From contig JAJYIX010000004.1 of the NCBI GenBank assembly GCA_021789865.1, positions 1-44,156 on the forward strand: a DNA stretch of 44,156 nucleotides, written 5' to 3'. This DNA is from a bacterium. GTDB taxonomy: Bacteria; Patescibacteriota; Microgenomatia; UBA1406; GWC2-37-13. The translations under genes and the position numbers were made by a program. Under the pieces are notes generated by a model. That model saw nothing but the letters and a program-made list of their open reading frames with translations, was not told where the DNA came from and did not search any database. Positions 35,723 through 43,229 of the stretch are shown one piece after another (positions within the stretch are counted from its first letter, which is position 1; every line of letters starts with the position of its first letter).

Positions 35723-36994
35723 ATGATTAATTTAGTTTGGCACAATGAGAAACGAAAAGTACGGGATCTCACCCCTTATGCGAAGAATCGGCGTATCTTG
35801 ACTGAGTTTAAGGCTAAAAAACTTGAAGAAGGACTCAAAAAATTCAATCTTGTTGAGATTCCGGCAATTGACGTTGACAATACAATAATTGCCGGTCATC
35901 AACGTCTAAAAATATTAATTCTTTTAGGAAGAGGAGACGAGGAAATTGACGTTAGAGTTCCAAATCGAAAATTAACTGATGAAGAACTTCAAGAATATAA
36001 CTTAAGAAGCAATGTGCCTATTGGTGAATGGGACTTCGAGCTCTTGAAAGATATAGATATTGATTTACTTCTTGATGTTGGATTTGAAGAGACTGATCTG
36101 TCGCAAATTTGGGATAATCAGCTTGCGATAGATGGCGACGAATTCGATGAACAAATAGAATTGAAAAAAATTAAGGAGCCGATAACTAAACCTGGCGACA
36201 TATATTTACTAGGTTCGCATAAACTTCTCTGCTTTGACTCAAATGATCCTGATTCAGTAAAAAAACTGACAAATGAAAGAAATGTTTCTTTAATGATTAA
36301 CGATCCAATCTATAACATTTCTTTAAACTATGACAAGGGATTTGGAAAAAGAAGTAAGTACGGCGGAACTGTAAATGACACAAAAACGGATGCGAAGTAC
36401 AAAGAATTTTTAAAAAAAGCTATGGTAAACGGATTAAGTATTTGTAAGTCGGACGCCCACATATTCTATTTTTGTGATGAAAGCTATATCTGGCTTATCC
36501 AGACGCTTTATCAAGAATTAGGCATAACTAATAGACGCGTTTGCCTCTGGATAAAAAATAATCAAAACCCAACACCTGGCGTGGCCTTTAGCAAAGCGTA
36601 CGAACCATGCGTCTATGGGAGCATAGGAAAGCCCTATCTTTCTCCACTAGTCAAAAATCTAAATGAGATTATGGATAAAGAGGTTAGTACTGGAAACGGA
36701 ACGCTTGATGATATCATCGATCTATTTAACATCTGGCTCGTCAAGAGGCTCCCAACATCAGAATACGAACATGCGACTTCCAAACCTCCAACACTTTATG
36801 AAAAAGCTTTAAGACGTTGTACCATACCGGGAGATATAGTATTGGATTTATACGCCGGTGGCGGCCCACTAATCGTTGCCGCCGAGCAGTTAAAACGAAA
36901 GGCATTATTAGTTGAGATCGAACCGATATTTTGCGATCTTATAATCCGAAGATATGAACACCTTACCGGAATTAAAACAATCAAGGTCACTTAA
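35723..36994 (+). CDS. ParB-domain DNA methyltransferase (N4/N6, beta-type)
   Basis: A 423-residue fusion of a ParB/sulfiredoxin-like nuclease-type domain (about 1-110, with GHQR near 58-61) and a DNA methyltransferase domain. Motif IV precedes motif I, as in the beta class. Motif IV is NDPIY (193-197) rather than the usual DPPY, and the SAM motif is DLYAGGGPLI rather than DxFxGSGST. Both deviations may reduce activity. Such proteins are common next to phage terminases. The 3' end overlaps the second methyltransferase gene by 41 bases. Confidence 0.85.
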   Translation: MINLVWHNEKRKVRDLTPYAKNRRILTEFKAKKLEEGLKKFNLVEIPAIDVDNTIIAGHQRLKILILLGRGDEEIDVRVPNRKLTDEELQEYNLRSNVPIGEWDFELLKDIDIDLLLDVGFEETDLSQIWDNQLAIDGDEFDEQIELKKIKEPITKPGDIYLLGSHKLLCFDSNDPDSVKKLTNERNVSLMINDPIYNISLNYDKGFGKRSKYGGTVNDTKTDAKYKEFLKKAMVNGLSICKSDAHIFYFCDESYIWLIQTLYQELGITNRRVCLWIKNNQNPTPGVAFSKAYEPCVYGSIGKPYLSPLVKNLNEIMDKEVSTGNGTLDDIIDLFNIWLVKRLPTSEYEHATSKPPTLYEKALRRCTIPGDIVLDLYAGGGPLIVAAEQLKRKALLVEIEPIFCDLIIRRYEHLTGIKTIKVT

Positions 36995-37733
36995 ATATGG
37001 CGATTGTTTTGCTTTAGGTCCGCACCGCCTAATTTTTGGTGACTCATGCGATCCTAATATTATTAAAAAACTTATCCAAAAAGATAGAATTAGCTTGTTA
37101 TTATGCGATATTCCCTATGGAATATCTTATGTTCAAAGTAAAAAAGGGTTCATTAATTTGAATAAAAAGGATAAAGTCATTGTCAACGATAATGAACAAT
37201 CAGAAGAAAAATATGTTGAGTTCAATAAAAGTTGGCTTGAAGCAGTTAAACCGTATCTCTCCTCAAAGAATTCATTCTATATTTTCAACTCCGACAAAAT
37301 GCTTTTTGCGCTTAGAAAAGGAATTGAGGACGCCGGATTTCGCTTTACTCAAATTTTAATCTGGATCAAAAACCAGGCGATTATGGGTCGGATGCACTAT
37401 CTTCCTCAACACGAACTCATAATATTTGGCTGGTTTGGCAAACATAATTTTTACAAATCACCCGATCGCAGCGTTTTATTTTATCCAAAACCCAATAAAA
37501 GTATCTATCACCCGACGATGAAACCAATTCCTCTTTTGCGACAACTTATCTTGAATAGTAGTCGGATCGGAGACTTTGTCTTTGACGGGTTTGGAGGATC
37601 AGGACAAACTTTATTGGCCTGTGAACAAACTAGAAGAAAATGTTTAATGGTTGAGATTGACGTGGAGTATGTGACAACAATAATTCAAAGATACGAAAAG
37701 TTCACAGGATTAAAACTTAAAAAGATTTCTTAA
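36954..37733 (+). CDS. DNA methyltransferase (beta-type), without ParB domain
   Basis: A 259-residue methyltransferase. Residues 15-35 (YGDCFALGPHRLIFGDSCDP) parallel the domain start of the preceding protein (PGDIYLLGSHKLLCFDS), so it looks like a duplicated C-terminal half. Motif IV is CDIPY (51-55) instead of DPPY, and the SAM motif FDGFGGSGQT is intact. N4-cytosine or N6-adenine methylation is expected; specificity is unknown. No restriction endonuclease gene is adjacent. Confidence 0.87.
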   Translation: MNTLPELKQSRSLKYGDCFALGPHRLIFGDSCDPNIIKKLIQKDRISLLLCDIPYGISYVQSKKGFINLNKKDKVIVNDNEQSEEKYVEFNKSWLEAVKPYLSSKNSFYIFNSDKMLFALRKGIEDAGFRFTQILIWIKNQAIMGRMHYLPQHELIIFGWFGKHNFYKSPDRSVLFYPKPNKSIYHPTMKPIPLLRQLILNSSRIGDFVFDGFGGSGQTLLACEQTRRKCLMVEIDVEYVTTIIQRYEKFTGLKLKKIS

Positions 37734-37738
37734 TCTAT

Positions 37739-38173
37739 ATGAATAATACTATTGAAAAACGACAGCAGCAGGAAAAAGAACTTATCTTTGAACAGTTAAA
37801 AAAATGTCCGATTATATCTGTTGCCTGTGAAAAAGCAGGAGTACCTCGACCAAATTACTATCGCTGGAAAAGGGAAGATTCGGAATTTGCTAGATTAACT
37901 GATGAGGCAATCCGTGAAGGCGAAAAATTGGCTAGTGATGTTGCTGAATCACAGCTTTTAACATTAATAAAAAATAGCAATCTCGGTGCCATTATTTTCT
38001 GGCTCCGTCACCATCATCCAAACTATGCCAACAAAATTGAAGTAACCGCTCGACTTAAACAAGATGAAAAGTTAACGCCCGATCAGGAAGCCTTGATAGA
38101 TAAGGCTTTAAAACTTGCCGCTCTTGTCCCAACCATTAATAATTTAAAGGATAAGGAGCCTAAAAAATTATGA
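37739..38173 (+). CDS. Phage terminase small subunit-like protein
   Basis: A 144-residue protein with an N-terminal helix-turn-helix (ISVACEKAGVPRPNYYRWKR, about 25-44), a central oligomerisation helix and FWLRHHHPNYANK, which recurs in small terminases. It would recognise the packaging-start DNA and load the large subunit. It starts 5 bases after the methyltransferase stop and overlaps the large-subunit gene by 4 bases. Confidence 0.75.
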   Translation: MNNTIEKRQQQEKELIFEQLKKCPIISVACEKAGVPRPNYYRWKREDSEFARLTDEAIREGEKLASDVAESQLLTLIKNSNLGAIIFWLRHHHPNYANKIEVTARLKQDEKLTPDQEALIDKALKLAALVPTINNLKDKEPKKL

Positions 38174-39684
38174 TTATTACACCACTCACTAATGATGAGC
38201 TTGTTAAAATTAAAAGTGACAGAAGTGTCAGGCGGATACTAGCCCAGAAAAACCACTATTGGTTTTTCGCTATATATTTATCCCATTACATCCAGTATCC
38301 CTTTGCCCCGATTCACTACCAGATGTTTGATATAACAGAAGATCAAAAAATGTCATTGGCAATATTAGTTGCTTTTAGAAATTCAGAAAAATCAACCATA
38401 ATGACCGCCTCATATCCAATCTGGTCTATTATTGGAATACAAAAGAAGAAATTTGTCCTAATTATCAGTCAAACCCAAAATCAAGCCAGACTTCACCTAA
38501 CTAATATCAAGCGTGAACTTGAAGGAAACAATCTTTTGAAAGATGATATCGGACCATTTGAAGAGTATTCTGACGAATGGGGTGCAAATTCTATTGTCTT
38601 ATCAAACTATAACGCCAGAATTACAGCCGCATCTACCGAGCAGAGTATCCGTGGTATGCGCCATGGTCAATACCGACCAGATCTAATTATCGCCGATGAT
38701 ATCGAAGATCTCCAATCGGTCAAAACCAAAGAAGGGAGAGACCGCACTTTTAACTGGTTTAACGGTGAAGTTATTCCGGTTGGTGATACGAATACGAAAA
38801 TCGTTGTCGTTGGAAATTTGCTTCATGAAGATTCATTAATCATGCGTCTTCGAAAACTCATACAAGAAGAAAAGTTAACCGCTTCATTTTTTGCGTTTCC
38901 TCTCCTTGATGAAAAAGATGCAATTACCTGGCCGGGAAAGTTCCCAACAATGAAAGAGATTGAAACCCTAAAAAAATCAGTCCCATCAGAATCGGCCTTT
39001 TCCAGGGAATATCTTTTGAAGATTATCTCCGATGCTGATCGGTTAGTACATCCGTCCTGGATTCATGGCTATGATGTTATACCGCCTCAAGAACAAAGAC
39101 ACTATCTATATACCGCAACCGGAATCGACTTAGCGATTTCGGAAAAAGAATCGGCCGATTATACAGCTATGGTATCTGGAAAAATCTATAGTCCGCCGGA
39201 AGGTCTTAGAATATATATTCTGCCAAATCCAGTTAATAAACGGATGGGCTTCCCTGAGACTGTTGAACAGGCCATTTCTTTATCAAAGGCCCTAGGAAAC
39301 GGCTACTACACTGAGCTTTTTATCGAAAATGTTGGTTATCAAGACGCATTTATCCAACATCTAAAAAACATTAACGTTCCGGCAGAAGGTGTTAAAACTG
39401 GAGGTCAAGGAAAACGGGAACGATTGGCACTGGTTACTCATATGATTCAACAAGGCAAGGTACTTTTTCCAAGGCACGGATGTGAGGATCTGATTTTACA
39501 GCTTACGGGCTTTGGAGTTGAGAAACATGATGATCTAGCCGATGCTTTTTCTCTTTTGATATTAAAGATCATAAGTGATGATCGGCCTCAACCAAAACTT
39601 ACAGTTATTGATATTGGTCCATCTGTTTTTGGTGATTTTTCCCAGTTTGGAGATTTTAAAATAACAAGGGATAAGATTTTTTAA
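38170..39684 (+). CDS. Phage terminase large subunit
   Basis: A 504-residue packaging motor. The ATPase domain has an unusual Walker A, AFRNSEKST (residues 68-76), with Glu where Gly normally precedes the Lys. Walker B plus catalytic Glu is LIIADDIED (172-180). The C-terminal RNase-H-like nuclease keeps its acids: D320 and D330, E386, and D454/D455/D458 in DDLADAF. The nuclease looks intact while the ATP loop is atypical. It overlaps the convergent XRE gene by 4 bases. Confidence 0.88.
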   Translation: MIITPLTNDELVKIKSDRSVRRILAQKNHYWFFAIYLSHYIQYPFAPIHYQMFDITEDQKMSLAILVAFRNSEKSTIMTASYPIWSIIGIQKKKFVLIISQTQNQARLHLTNIKRELEGNNLLKDDIGPFEEYSDEWGANSIVLSNYNARITAASTEQSIRGMRHGQYRPDLIIADDIEDLQSVKTKEGRDRTFNWFNGEVIPVGDTNTKIVVVGNLLHEDSLIMRLRKLIQEEKLTASFFAFPLLDEKDAITWPGKFPTMKEIETLKKSVPSESAFSREYLLKIISDADRLVHPSWIHGYDVIPPQEQRHYLYTATGIDLAISEKESADYTAMVSGKIYSPPEGLRIYILPNPVNKRMGFPETVEQAISLSKALGNGYYTELFIENVGYQDAFIQHLKNINVPAEGVKTGGQGKRERLALVTHMIQQGKVLFPRHGCEDLILQLTGFGVEKHDDLADAFSLLILKIISDDRPQPKLTVIDIGPSVFGDFSQFGDFKITRDKIF

Positions 39685-40733: not shown

Positions 40734-40761
40734 TTGACAAATCAAAAAACTAGTATATAAT
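40734..40761 (+). promoter_or_regulatory. Promoter of the arginine operon
   Basis: TTGACA (40734-40739), a 16-base spacer and TATAAT (40756-40761): consensus boxes. The expected transcription start near 40768 is within 2 bases of the ATG of the leader frame at 40770. Confidence 0.85.
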
Positions 40762-40769
40762 TCTTTTAT

Positions 40770-40844
40770 ATGGTCAAATTACTATCTGTATCCAATTCGC
40801 AATCTAGGCGAACCTTTGGGGAAGGTAGTATTCTTTTGGCCTAA
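40770..40844 (+). CDS. Putative arginine leader peptide (24 codons)
   Basis: ATG 40770 to TAA 40842-40844. The peptide contains S-N-S-Q-S-R-R-T-F-G-E-G, with adjacent arginine codons AGG-CGA at 40806-40811. It starts at or within about 2 bases of the predicted transcript 5' end, so it is leaderless. The Arg pair sits 3 bases before the antiterminator stem, and the stop codon falls in the antiterminator loop. This is the geometry for a ribosome that stalls when Arg-tRNA is scarce. Confidence 0.7.
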   Translation: MVKLLSVSNSQSRRTFGEGSILLA

Positions 40845-40894
40845 ACCAAAGAGGAAAATATTATCAACCCCGAGCTAAGATGCTCGGGTTTTTT
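40815..40894 (+). promoter_or_regulatory. Transcription attenuator: antiterminator versus terminator
   Basis: Antiterminator: UUUGGGG (40815-40821) pairs with CCCCGAG (40868-40874), and GGUAGUAUU (40824-40832) with AAUAUUAUC (40857-40865), separated by a symmetric AA/AA internal loop. CUUUUGG (40833-40839) pairs with CCAAAG (40846-40851) at the top. Terminator: CCCGAGC (40869-40875), loop UAAGAU, GCUCGGG (40882-40888), then six U. Both structures need CCCGAG, so they exclude each other. Confidence 0.75.
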
Positions 40895-40911
40895 AATGGC
40901 CAAAAATACAC

Positions 40912-40943
40912 TCCCCCGGACTAAACACCCGGGGGATTTTTTT
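40912..40943 (+). terminator. Second terminator hairpin before argG
   Basis: UCCCCCGG (40912-40919), loop ACUAAACAC, CCGGGGGA (40929-40936), then seven U, ending 20 bases before the argG ATG. Alternatively CUCGGGU (40883-40889, the 3' arm of the first terminator) can pair with ACCCGGG (40927-40933), which would prevent this hairpin. Confidence 0.8.
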
Positions 40944-40963
40944 ATTAAAAGTTAAATCCAAAT

Positions 40964-42202
40964 ATGAAAAATCAAAAACAAACTAAAAAAGCGATTCTCG
41001 CCTTTTCCGGTGGTCTTGATACCTCCTACTGTGTTCTTTATTTAAAAGAACAAGGTTATGACGTGGTGACGATGACTGTTGATACTGGTGGCTTTGCGAA
41101 AGAAGACCAGGAATACATAATCAAACAATCAAAGTTCGTTGGTGCGATCAAACATTATTTTATCGATGGAAAAAAACAATTATATGATCAAATTGTTTCC
41201 TATATTATCAAAGGAAATATTTTACGTGGTAGCGTCTATCCACTTTCTGCCGGACCAGAAAGACTGATTATAGCCACAAAATTAGTAGAAATAGCCAAAA
41301 AAGAAAAGGCAATGGCAGTCGTTCACGGCTCAACTGGAGCTGGTAATGATCAAGTACGTTTTGATGTGGCAATCAAAGTCTTGGCTCCCGAACTCAAAAT
41401 CATAGCTCCAATTCGTGATTTGGAACTAACTCGGGAAGAAGAAATGAAAATATTAGAGAAAAGCGGAATAACCATTCCGACAATATCAAAATCATATTCA
41501 ATAAACAAAGGTATGTTAGGCGTTACTATTGGTGGAAAAGAAACAAAAGGGTCATGGGAAGCACCACCCGAAGAAGTTTATCCTGGAATTACACCGTTAG
41601 TTAATACTCCGGATAAATCAGATACTTTTGTTATTTCGTATAAAAATGGTTTGCCTATCGGGATAAATGGTAAACCTATGAACGGCTTATCAATTATGGA
41701 ATATTTAACTGAAATTGGAGGGAAACACGGCATTGGTAAGAATATTCATCTGGGTAATACAATCCTTGGTATAAAAGGACGTGTTGCTTTCGCCGCGCCG
41801 GCGGTGACGATACTTATTAAAGCTCATAAAGAACTTGAAAAATTAGTTCTAACAAAGTGGCAATCGTTTTGGAAAGACACTCTTTCTGACGTTTGGGGTA
41901 ATTTTGTTCATGAAGGACTGTATTTTGATCCTGTGATAAAAGATATCGAGGCAATGCTCGACAGTAGTCAAAAAACTGTTACTGGTGATGTAAGAATAAA
42001 ACTGTTTAAGGGCAACATTATTACAGAAGGTTATAAAAGCCCCTTTTCCCTTATGAGTCTGGATATAGCAACGTATGGAGAAAAGAATATTCTTTGGACA
42101 GGGAAGGAGGCAGCCGGATTTTGTAAGATTTATGGTTTGCAAAGTATCTTAGCCCACAAAGCTTATAAGTTAGGGAAAAAATATGAAAAACAAAAAAGTT
42201 AA
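40964..42202 (+). CDS. argG: Argininosuccinate synthase
   Basis: A 412-residue enzyme joining citrulline and aspartate with ATP. The PP-loop is AFSGGLDTS (13-21), followed by DVVTMTVDTGG. The STGAGNDQVRFD segment (family: GCTGKGNDQVRFE) and the C-terminal TGKEAAGFCKIYGLQS region are diagnostic. Normal length. It heads the arginine operon under the attenuator described upstream, and its last 20 bases overlap the next gene. No Shine-Dalgarno sequence is seen before the ATG. Confidence 0.96.
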   Translation: MKNQKQTKKAILAFSGGLDTSYCVLYLKEQGYDVVTMTVDTGGFAKEDQEYIIKQSKFVGAIKHYFIDGKKQLYDQIVSYIIKGNILRGSVYPLSAGPERLIIATKLVEIAKKEKAMAVVHGSTGAGNDQVRFDVAIKVLAPELKIIAPIRDLELTREEEMKILEKSGITIPTISKSYSINKGMLGVTIGGKETKGSWEAPPEEVYPGITPLVNTPDKSDTFVISYKNGLPIGINGKPMNGLSIMEYLTEIGGKHGIGKNIHLGNTILGIKGRVAFAAPAVTILIKAHKELEKLVLTKWQSFWKDTLSDVWGNFVHEGLYFDPVIKDIEAMLDSSQKTVTGDVRIKLFKGNIITEGYKSPFSLMSLDIATYGEKNILWTGKEAAGFCKIYGLQSILAHKAYKLGKKYEKQKS

Positions 42203-43229
42203 AGTTGACAAAATTGGGTCGGTGACAAAAAATATGGATCTTAAGGATGAAGTATGTATTTCAACAAATACGTCCCTTTTGGAAGGAGATGTTATTGTTG
42301 TGCAAGCTTTGGAAGAACATGAAAAATATGGAGAACTAGAATTAATTGACGGGGCTTTATCGAAAATTAATAATAGCGATCTAATCATCGGTGTTCTTGG
42401 TGAACGCAAAGCATTAGCTGGTATAGTCGGAATTGTTCCAAGTAAAGTCAAAAACGATGACACTCTTCATATTTTGAATATCGGCGGAGTAATCGGGAAA
42501 GCTGTTTCGTGGAATAAAGATTTTGTTAAATCACCAATACCAATAAAAATAATTGGTAATGTTATAGTAAAAAATAAAAAACTCAATGTTCACGATTGTA
42601 TACAGAAGTTAGATTCGACTCTTAAAAAAACAGTTCCGTTAATTGTTGTTATGGGTACAGCCATGAATGTTGGGAAAACTACTGCAACAACTAATATCAT
42701 TACCGCACTTACACATAAACTTAAACTAAATATTTCTGCTGCTAAATTAACCGGTGTAGCTGCACAGAAAGACATTGTAGCAATGAAAAAGGCCGGAGCT
42801 AAAGAAGTGGTTAGTTTCCTTGATGTGGGAATAAGCTCAACAATTAACCATCACGGTTTAGTTATTCCTGCAGCAAAAACTCTATTAAATAAACTTAGCG
42901 AAGATAAACCCGATGCAATTATTATAGAACTCGGCGACGGAATAATTGGCTGGTATGGGGTAGATAAATTACTTCATGATTCCGAATTCACGAAAGCAAT
43001 GAGCTTTAAAATCATGTGTGCTCATGATTTAGTTGGTGCAAAAGGAGCCTTTGATATGCTGAAAGAATTAAATTTGGTAATCGATTATTTTGCCGGACCC
43101 GTAACAAATAATACTGCAGGTACTGATTATTTAGAAAATAATCTTAAGATTCCTTCGGGAGATTTAAGATATGACACTTCAAAGTTATTAAAAAATCTGA
43201 AGATGAAAGGAGTGATTAAATATGATTAA
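42183..43229 (+). CDS. P-loop NTPase of the arginine operon (DUF1611/dethiobiotin-synthetase-like)
   Basis: A 348-residue protein. Residues 1-~150 form a beta-rich domain, then a SIMIBI-class P-loop GTAMNVGKTT (158-167) begins a nucleotide-binding domain with AAKLTGVAAQKD, DVGISSTI and the Walker-B-like DAIIIELGDGIIGWYG. It resembles DUF1611/dethiobiotin-synthetase-type proteins, but the match is remote. Overlaps with argG (20 bases) and argC (8 bases) show it is made with arginine enzymes. Some DUF1611 proteins (DgcN) have been reported as N-acetyltransferases acting on glutamate, so an acyl-transfer role in this pathway is conceivable. Confidence 0.65.
   Translation: MKNKKVKVDKIGSVTKNMDLKDEVCISTNTSLLEGDVIVVQALEEHEKYGELELIDGALSKINNSDLIIGVLGERKALAGIVGIVPSKVKNDDTLHILNIGGVIGKAVSWNKDFVKSPIPIKIIGNVIVKNKKLNVHDCIQKLDSTLKKTVPLIVVMGTAMNVGKTTATTNIITALTHKLKLNISAAKLTGVAAQKDIVAMKKAGAKEVVSFLDVGISSTINHHGLVIPAAKTLLNKLSEDKPDAIIIELGDGIIGWYGVDKLLHDSEFTKAMSFKIMCAHDLVGAKGAFDMLKELNLVIDYFAGPVTNNTAGTDYLENNLKIPSGDLRYDTSKLLKNLKMKGVIKYD

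Follow-up and report, generated by a model that had tools for sequence, protein, structure and literature searches.

A probable ribosome-mediated arginine attenuator ahead of argG, from a leader family of Candidatus Roizmanbacteria

The window analyzed here is a 44,156 nucleotide stretch of DNA (contig JAJYIX010000004.1, assembly GCA_021789865.1) in which argG is followed by a gene for a P-loop protein that matches no family, and then by argC. The leader region we examined comprises the 231 bases ahead of argG (40734–40964), and it folds 4.45 standard deviations better than its dinucleotide shuffles. An initial annotation of this region had described a consensus promoter, a 24-codon frame carrying AGG-CGA, an extended stem with the leader stop codon in its loop, and two terminators, the first of which shares CCCGAG with that stem. 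All of these elements are present with their positions unchanged (Table 1). The stem pairs GGGG-AA-GGUAGUAUU with AAUAUUAUC-AA-CCCC (regions 2 and 3), and the AGG-CGA codons lie 6 nt upstream of region 2 and 36 nt upstream of the stop codon.

Table 1. Features of the leader region and the gene that it is proposed to control
Feature	Position	Strand	Basis
Promoter, TTGACA-16 nt-TATAAT	40734–40761	+	12/12 matches
Leader-peptide ORF, MVKLLSVSNSQSRRTFGEGSILLA-stop, 24 codons	40770–40844	+	Frame open in all 35 homologs
Region 1 (AAATTACTATCT), partner of region 2 (protector helix 1:2)	40776–40787	+	Swap test, pair counts
Tandem Arg codons AGG-CGA, putative stall site	40806–40811	+	Arg-Arg in 35/35 leaders
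Region 2 (GGGGAAGGTAGTATT), antiterminator 5' arm for which regions 1, 3 and 5 compete	40818–40832	+	
Leader end TTTTGGCC, pairs with GGCCAAAA downstream of terminator 1	40834–40841	+	Folding, complementarity
Region 3 (AATATTATC-AA-CCCC), antiterminator 3' arm overlapping the terminator-1 5' arm	40857–40871	+	Swap test, pair counts
Terminator 1 (3:4), CCCGAGC..GCTCGGG + T6	40869–40894 (hairpin 40869–40888)	+	Counterpart in 34/34 readable leaders
Region 5 (GGCCAAAAATACACTCCCC), complementary to region 2 and leader end; includes the terminator-2 5' arm	40898–40916	+	Duplex −22.7 kcal/mol
Terminator 2, TCCCCCGGACTAAACACCCGGGGGA + T7	40912–40943 (hairpin 40912–40936)	+	In 7/34 leaders
argG, argininosuccinate synthase, putative controlled gene	40964–42202	+	TIGR00032, 352 bits

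The P-loop protein between argG and argC (42183–43229; 348 aa, P-loop GTAMNVGKTTAT) has no Pfam or NCBIfam match, and an ORF of similar size is also found 3' of argG at L002 and L003. Just upstream of the leader, at 36954–39684, genes for a DNA methyltransferase, a small protein and a terminase-like large subunit (Terminase_6C) make up a phage-like segment adjoining the arginine operon.

Relatives carry the same leader upstream of their argG homologs. Searched with a covariance model of the leader, the 72 genomes of a single Candidatus Roizmanbacteria family yielded 32 copies, spread over 30 of them (E ≤ 0.01, best E 4.5e-21), and in all 32 copies an Arg-Arg ORF precedes the core. Together with the folding result, these copies place the leader far outside chance expectation. 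A refined model added one further family genome (31/72 in total) and one copy each in genomes G063 and G406, one from a different family of the order, the other from a different family of the class. When 373 genomes of the class were searched, true leaders were confined to the same family and these two genomes, while a search of 380 genomes of the phylum returned just the window's own genome and one weak match without a leader ORF. A degenerate exact pattern applied to 84,980 species matched 20 contigs, mostly titled Ca. Roizmanbacteria; five of the 20 carry generic bacterial or Patescibacteria titles and one 3.8-kb contig, possibly misbinned, is labelled Portnoybacteria. None of the viral contigs searched carried the pattern. 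With the Arg constraint removed, the core pattern gave 29 matches in the family, 28 of them known Arg-Arg leaders; the remaining match, in G104 (L119), looks like chance, and L076 and L127 were likewise rejected as chance matches. The curated set used below consists of 35 leaders. Taken together, the searches point to a lineage-specific leader family that belongs to one Candidatus Roizmanbacteria family and is rare outside it.

The leader ORF is open in all 35 leaders, whereas in 32 of them neither of the other frames is open. The distance from the ATG to the Arg-Arg pair takes six lengths (27, 30, 33, 36, 90 and 96 nt) and is a multiple of three in every leader; insertions in the ORFs of L041, L050 and L056 are all in frame and introduce no stops. 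Arg-Arg itself is present in 35/35 leaders and is encoded by eight different codon pairs, with AGG as the first codon in 29/35, although AGG makes up 12.5% of the Arg codons across 25 ORFs of the window. From the pair to the stop codon the distance is 36 nt in 31/35. The earlier proposal that a ribosome at the stop codon breaks up the antiterminator stem is supported. This pattern of variation among homologs indicates that the leader ORF is selected as a reading frame. The insertions in L050 and L056 share an ATCCTCC/TTCGG-type repeat and that in L041 measures 18 nt.

Since the −10 box in the window ends 8 nt before the leader ATG, the transcription start site is predicted to lie at the ATG or within about 2 nt of it. 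In 28/35 leaders the −10 box ends no more than 12 nt (6–12; median 8) before the ATG, so most leaders are predicted to be leaderless, and the leaderless ORF suggested in the initial annotation appears likely. In L036, L041, L047 and L050 the −10 box is 23–26 nt from the ATG, so a leaderless start cannot apply to every one of the 35. An SD-like motif is found in just 4 of 25 window genes.

Region 2 (GGGG-NN-GGUAGUAUU) is complementary both to region 3 and to region 1 (AAAUACUAUC), which lies at the start of the ORF. We compared each leader's own pairing partners with partners swapped among 33 leaders, using 5000 permutations. Own partners were better for helix 1:2 (−12.9 versus −10.6 kcal/mol) and for helix 2:3 (−15.3 versus −13.7 kcal/mol), with 0/5000 permutations as good in either case and no effect for the control pairing 1:3, although these swap controls, like the shuffles below, model shared ancestry incompletely. 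Column by column, helix 1:2 is 92.6% paired with 10 cells changed on both sides (1.8 when shuffled) and a covariation score of 0.288 (0.205 shuffled; slid versions at most 0.125), and 0–2 of 500 shuffles reach its pair counts. Helix 2:3 is 85% paired, a percentage that is biased because alignment A3 was fitted to this very helix, and has 16 both-side changes (4.6 shuffled) and a covariation score of 0.267 (0.168 shuffled; slid versions at most 0.105); the swap test and the 1:2 counts are free of this fitting bias. Compensatory change is seen directly at column pair 13–59, where C-G has become U-A in four leaders, and further examples of maintained pairing are CGGGAUAGUAU/AUAUUAUCCCG in L060 and GGGAGAGAUAGU/ACUAUCUUUCCC in L054.

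Every leader readable at the position of terminator 1 has an equivalent hairpin with a U tract. When the stalled state was modelled by removing the RNA behind an Arg-stalled ribosome, helix 2:3 formed in 33/34 leaders and the 2:3 structure equalled or exceeded terminator 1 in stability in 32/34, and together with the swap test and pair counts this upholds the antiterminator first described for the window. In the window copy, where helix 1:2 is weak, folding of the free RNA as far as terminator 1 predicts helix 2:3, so that the ribosome-free state may read through. Judged by covariation and folding, the mutually exclusive helices 1:2, 2:3 and 3:4 are those of a classical four-strand attenuator.

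Comparative sequence analysis establishes the ORF, its Arg codons, helices 1:2, 2:3 and 3:4, the spacings between them and the association with arginine genes. With these elements the leader is very probably a ribosome-mediated transcription attenuator that senses charged tRNA-Arg, and a member of a lineage-specific family that controls arginine genes in Candidatus Roizmanbacteria. The following scheme includes stalling, a leaderless start and kinetics that we infer. Transcription would start at or just upstream of the AUG of the 24-codon leader peptide, as the promoter position suggests. When Arg-tRNA is scarce, a ribosome would stall on the Arg-Arg pair. The leading edge of a stalled ribosome is about 12 nt ahead, and when the first Arg codon occupies the A site it would come to rest at the first G of region 2. 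Region 2 would then pair with region 3, terminator 1 would be blocked and RNA polymerase would read through; stalling at the Arg codons under starvation would relieve termination in this way. When Arg-tRNA is plentiful the ribosome would reach the stop codon and cover the GGUAGUAUU portion of region 2 (by general ribosome dimensions, its trailing edge should be close to the start of GGUAGUAUU with the stop in the A site), leaving region 3 to fold terminator 1 and argG off. If the leader is not translated, region 1 could hold region 2 and again permit termination, an arm of the scheme that would be weak in the window copy. The leader has only two Arg codons, and this counts against the attenuator reading.

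The ribosome-mediated attenuation at Arg codons proposed in the initial annotation is thus strengthened by the Arg-Arg pair in all leaders and by the covariation of the competing helices; the ORF, the Arg codons and the alternative pairings, on whose conservation in homologous leaders that proposal had been staked, are all conserved there. Its assignment of argG as the controlled gene agrees with the leaders that precede argG and other arginine genes in relatives, which make such control likely. Region 1, the region-5 stretch before terminator 2 and the regulon-wide distribution go beyond it.

The same hairpins could instead be switched by the peptide, if the conserved SRRxFGEGSI were an arginine-sensing arrest sequence that stalls the ribosome when arginine is bound. 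FGEGSI and KIL do recur at the peptide level, and conservation of the region 2 sequence goes hand in hand with that of its encoded peptide, so that some role of the peptide is possible. However, the FGEGSI and KIL residues sit in regions 2 and 1, respectively, and change with the helix (to GSDSI, GRDSI, GEDSV, RDSM or RWGNR), the codons from region 1 to Arg-Arg differ among leaders, both in sequence and in number (ATG and Arg-Arg are 27 to 96 nt apart), and an arginine-induced stall at Arg-Arg would activate the genes at high arginine, the wrong sign for biosynthesis. Because the residues follow the RNA helices and an induced stall has the wrong sign, we consider an arrest peptide unlikely, and distinctly so.

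The attenuator that we favor may extend to a second terminator, which is clear in 7/34 leaders and weak in one more, L053 (7–8 in all). For the window the initial annotation had envisaged a domino, in which terminator 2 loses its 3' arm to the freed 3' arm of terminator 1. The pairing on which this depends, ACCCGGG with CUCGGGU, is indeed present in the window copy (−12.2 kcal/mol) but is not conserved among the seven two-terminator leaders, where own partners do no better than swapped ones (−6.1 versus −6.4 kcal/mol, no difference). Moreover, in the modelled stalled state terminator 2 of the window still forms with a probability of about 1 and removing its hairpin costs 16.7 kcal/mol, and region 2 offers an alternative partner. 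The domino is therefore very doubtful.

This alternative emerged on folding the two-terminator leaders, which in the window picked out GGCCAAAAAUACACUCCCC at 40898–40916 as complementary to region 2 plus the leader end. The region-2:region-5 duplex reaches −15.6 to −26.2 kcal/mol in all seven two-terminator leaders and −19.3 kcal/mol in L053, and is no stronger than −13.0 kcal/mol in the remaining leaders. In this small sample of seven (plus L053), 49/5000 permutations of swapped partners among the seven were as good as the leaders' own, and with the GGGG/CCCC part left out the two groups still differ (p = 1.5e-4, uncorrected for phylogeny). We infer that in leaders with terminator 2, region 2 could be handed from region 3 to region 5, capturing the terminator-2 5' arm. 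The chances seem to us evenly divided that a single stalled ribosome, acting through region 2, would in this manner disarm two tandem terminators in sequence. A GGCCAAAA(U) stretch is often found 3' of terminator 1 even where there is no second terminator (e.g., L031, L037 and L039; 40895–40916 in the window), and in one-terminator leaders it may be the relic of a second terminator that was lost.

If the RNA sensed arginine or tRNA-Arg directly, as a non-coding riboswitch or T-box, the ORF would be incidental. The RNA structure is strong, conserved and covarying, and T-boxes are found on arginine genes in other bacteria (PMC1262725), but the ORF is kept in 35/35 leaders with its insertions in frame and its Arg codons varying synonymously. 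No Rfam family matches the leader at gathering thresholds and the matches below threshold are scattered; His_leader and Leu_leader score 18.5 and 18.3 bits against thresholds of 49 and 50, and the T-box covariance model gave no match at gathering and none in a permissive scan of the leader. Direct sensing of this kind is highly improbable. Least credible of all is that the tandem terminators insulate argG from upstream transcription and that the conserved ORF is a small protein gene in its own right, for although strong terminators and a consensus promoter make a self-contained short unit, no other promoter with at least 10 matches lies between the terminators and argG, the alternative helices covary, and the regulated gene begins within about 60 nt of the terminator in many leaders. 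Regulation by ArgR at arginine boxes was rejected because ArgR (PF01316) was detected in 0/72 family genomes; the same search found it in 9/14 control genomes.

As far as features can be tested on sequence, the Roizmanbacteria leader has those of the trp, his and leu attenuators, which are among the ribosome-mediated leader-peptide attenuators already described (PMC1183508). Like them, it combines a short ORF containing cognate codons, helices 1:2, 2:3 and 3:4 and an intrinsic terminator, has its stop codon placed so that a terminating ribosome would mask region 2, and precedes its own biosynthetic operon. Unlike them, it concerns arginine and Patescibacteria, its ORF is predicted to be leaderless, its Arg pair lies downstream of region 1 and not inside it, and one leader family with sometimes two terminators serves many arg operons, including argS. 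In fungi, the arginine attenuator peptide mediates an arginine-induced, peptide-dependent arrest that lowers translation. Control by arginine through a short upstream ORF is common to both systems, whereas the mechanism proposed here is a codon-dependent stall that would raise transcription during starvation. A mycobacterial leaderless short ORF with regulatory codons reportedly controls its downstream operon, as Canestrari and colleagues are said to have described in 2020. Such leaderless cysteine-responsive short-ORF attenuators of mycobacteria, cited in PMC9031893, likewise join a leaderless ORF with regulatory codons but involve another amino acid and another phylum, and are compared here by their ORF. 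The uORFC-8-2 motif upstream of cysS in Rhodobacterales, with a uORF, tandem cognate codons at positions 14–15 and a terminator (PMC8632094), is by its description similar in its tandem cognate codons, terminator and aminoacyl-tRNA synthetase target and differs in responding to cysteine and belonging to alphaproteobacteria.

In a 2010 survey, the known leader peptides were limited to Proteobacteria, Actinobacteria and the Firmicutes cases that the survey itself added (PMC2965389), and a 2005 survey reported no arginine leader peptides in Actinobacteria and cited T-boxes for arginine elsewhere (PMC1262725). Our literature search, which covered subscription journals little so that absence is not proof, found neither an attenuator of arginine biosynthesis based on a leader peptide nor any attenuator from Patescibacteria. 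If the present reading is true, biosynthetic genes would here be governed by a leader-peptide attenuator specific to arginine, in a phylum where hardly any gene regulation is known, and these minimal bacteria would couple translation tightly to transcription. The leader family would also define a candidate regulon for cells in which ArgR was not detected, and genes of unknown function beside argS would belong to it. The constant spacing from Arg codons to stop and the two competing, covarying helices make the proposal directly testable.

Genes that make arginine or charge tRNA with it lie behind the leaders. Downstream stand argG, argH or an argE-like M20 hydrolase gene, or else an operon that has GNAT, ATP-grasp or PLP-enzyme-like genes and in many cases continues into argS. 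The contig of L048 breaks off, and L060 and L075 show no arg gene within the sequence read. The window genome (G000) has two leaders, the one described here and another upstream of argH on contig 56, where a second argG lies about 1.5 kb further along. The two argG genes of this genome, on contigs C6 and C56, are divergent (about 36% identical), each behind its own Arg-Arg leader. On contig 110 of G059 (L062:1143-2460) two complete Arg-Arg leaders follow one another, with an argE-like M20 gene behind the first and argG behind the second. At L064, L066, L067, L068, L072, L074 and L075, Arg-Arg leaders head operons of GNAT, ATP-grasp, metallo-hydrolase-like, PLP-enzyme-like and unknown-protein genes; most of these operons end in argS, and L064 includes a 664-aa protein without a Pfam match.
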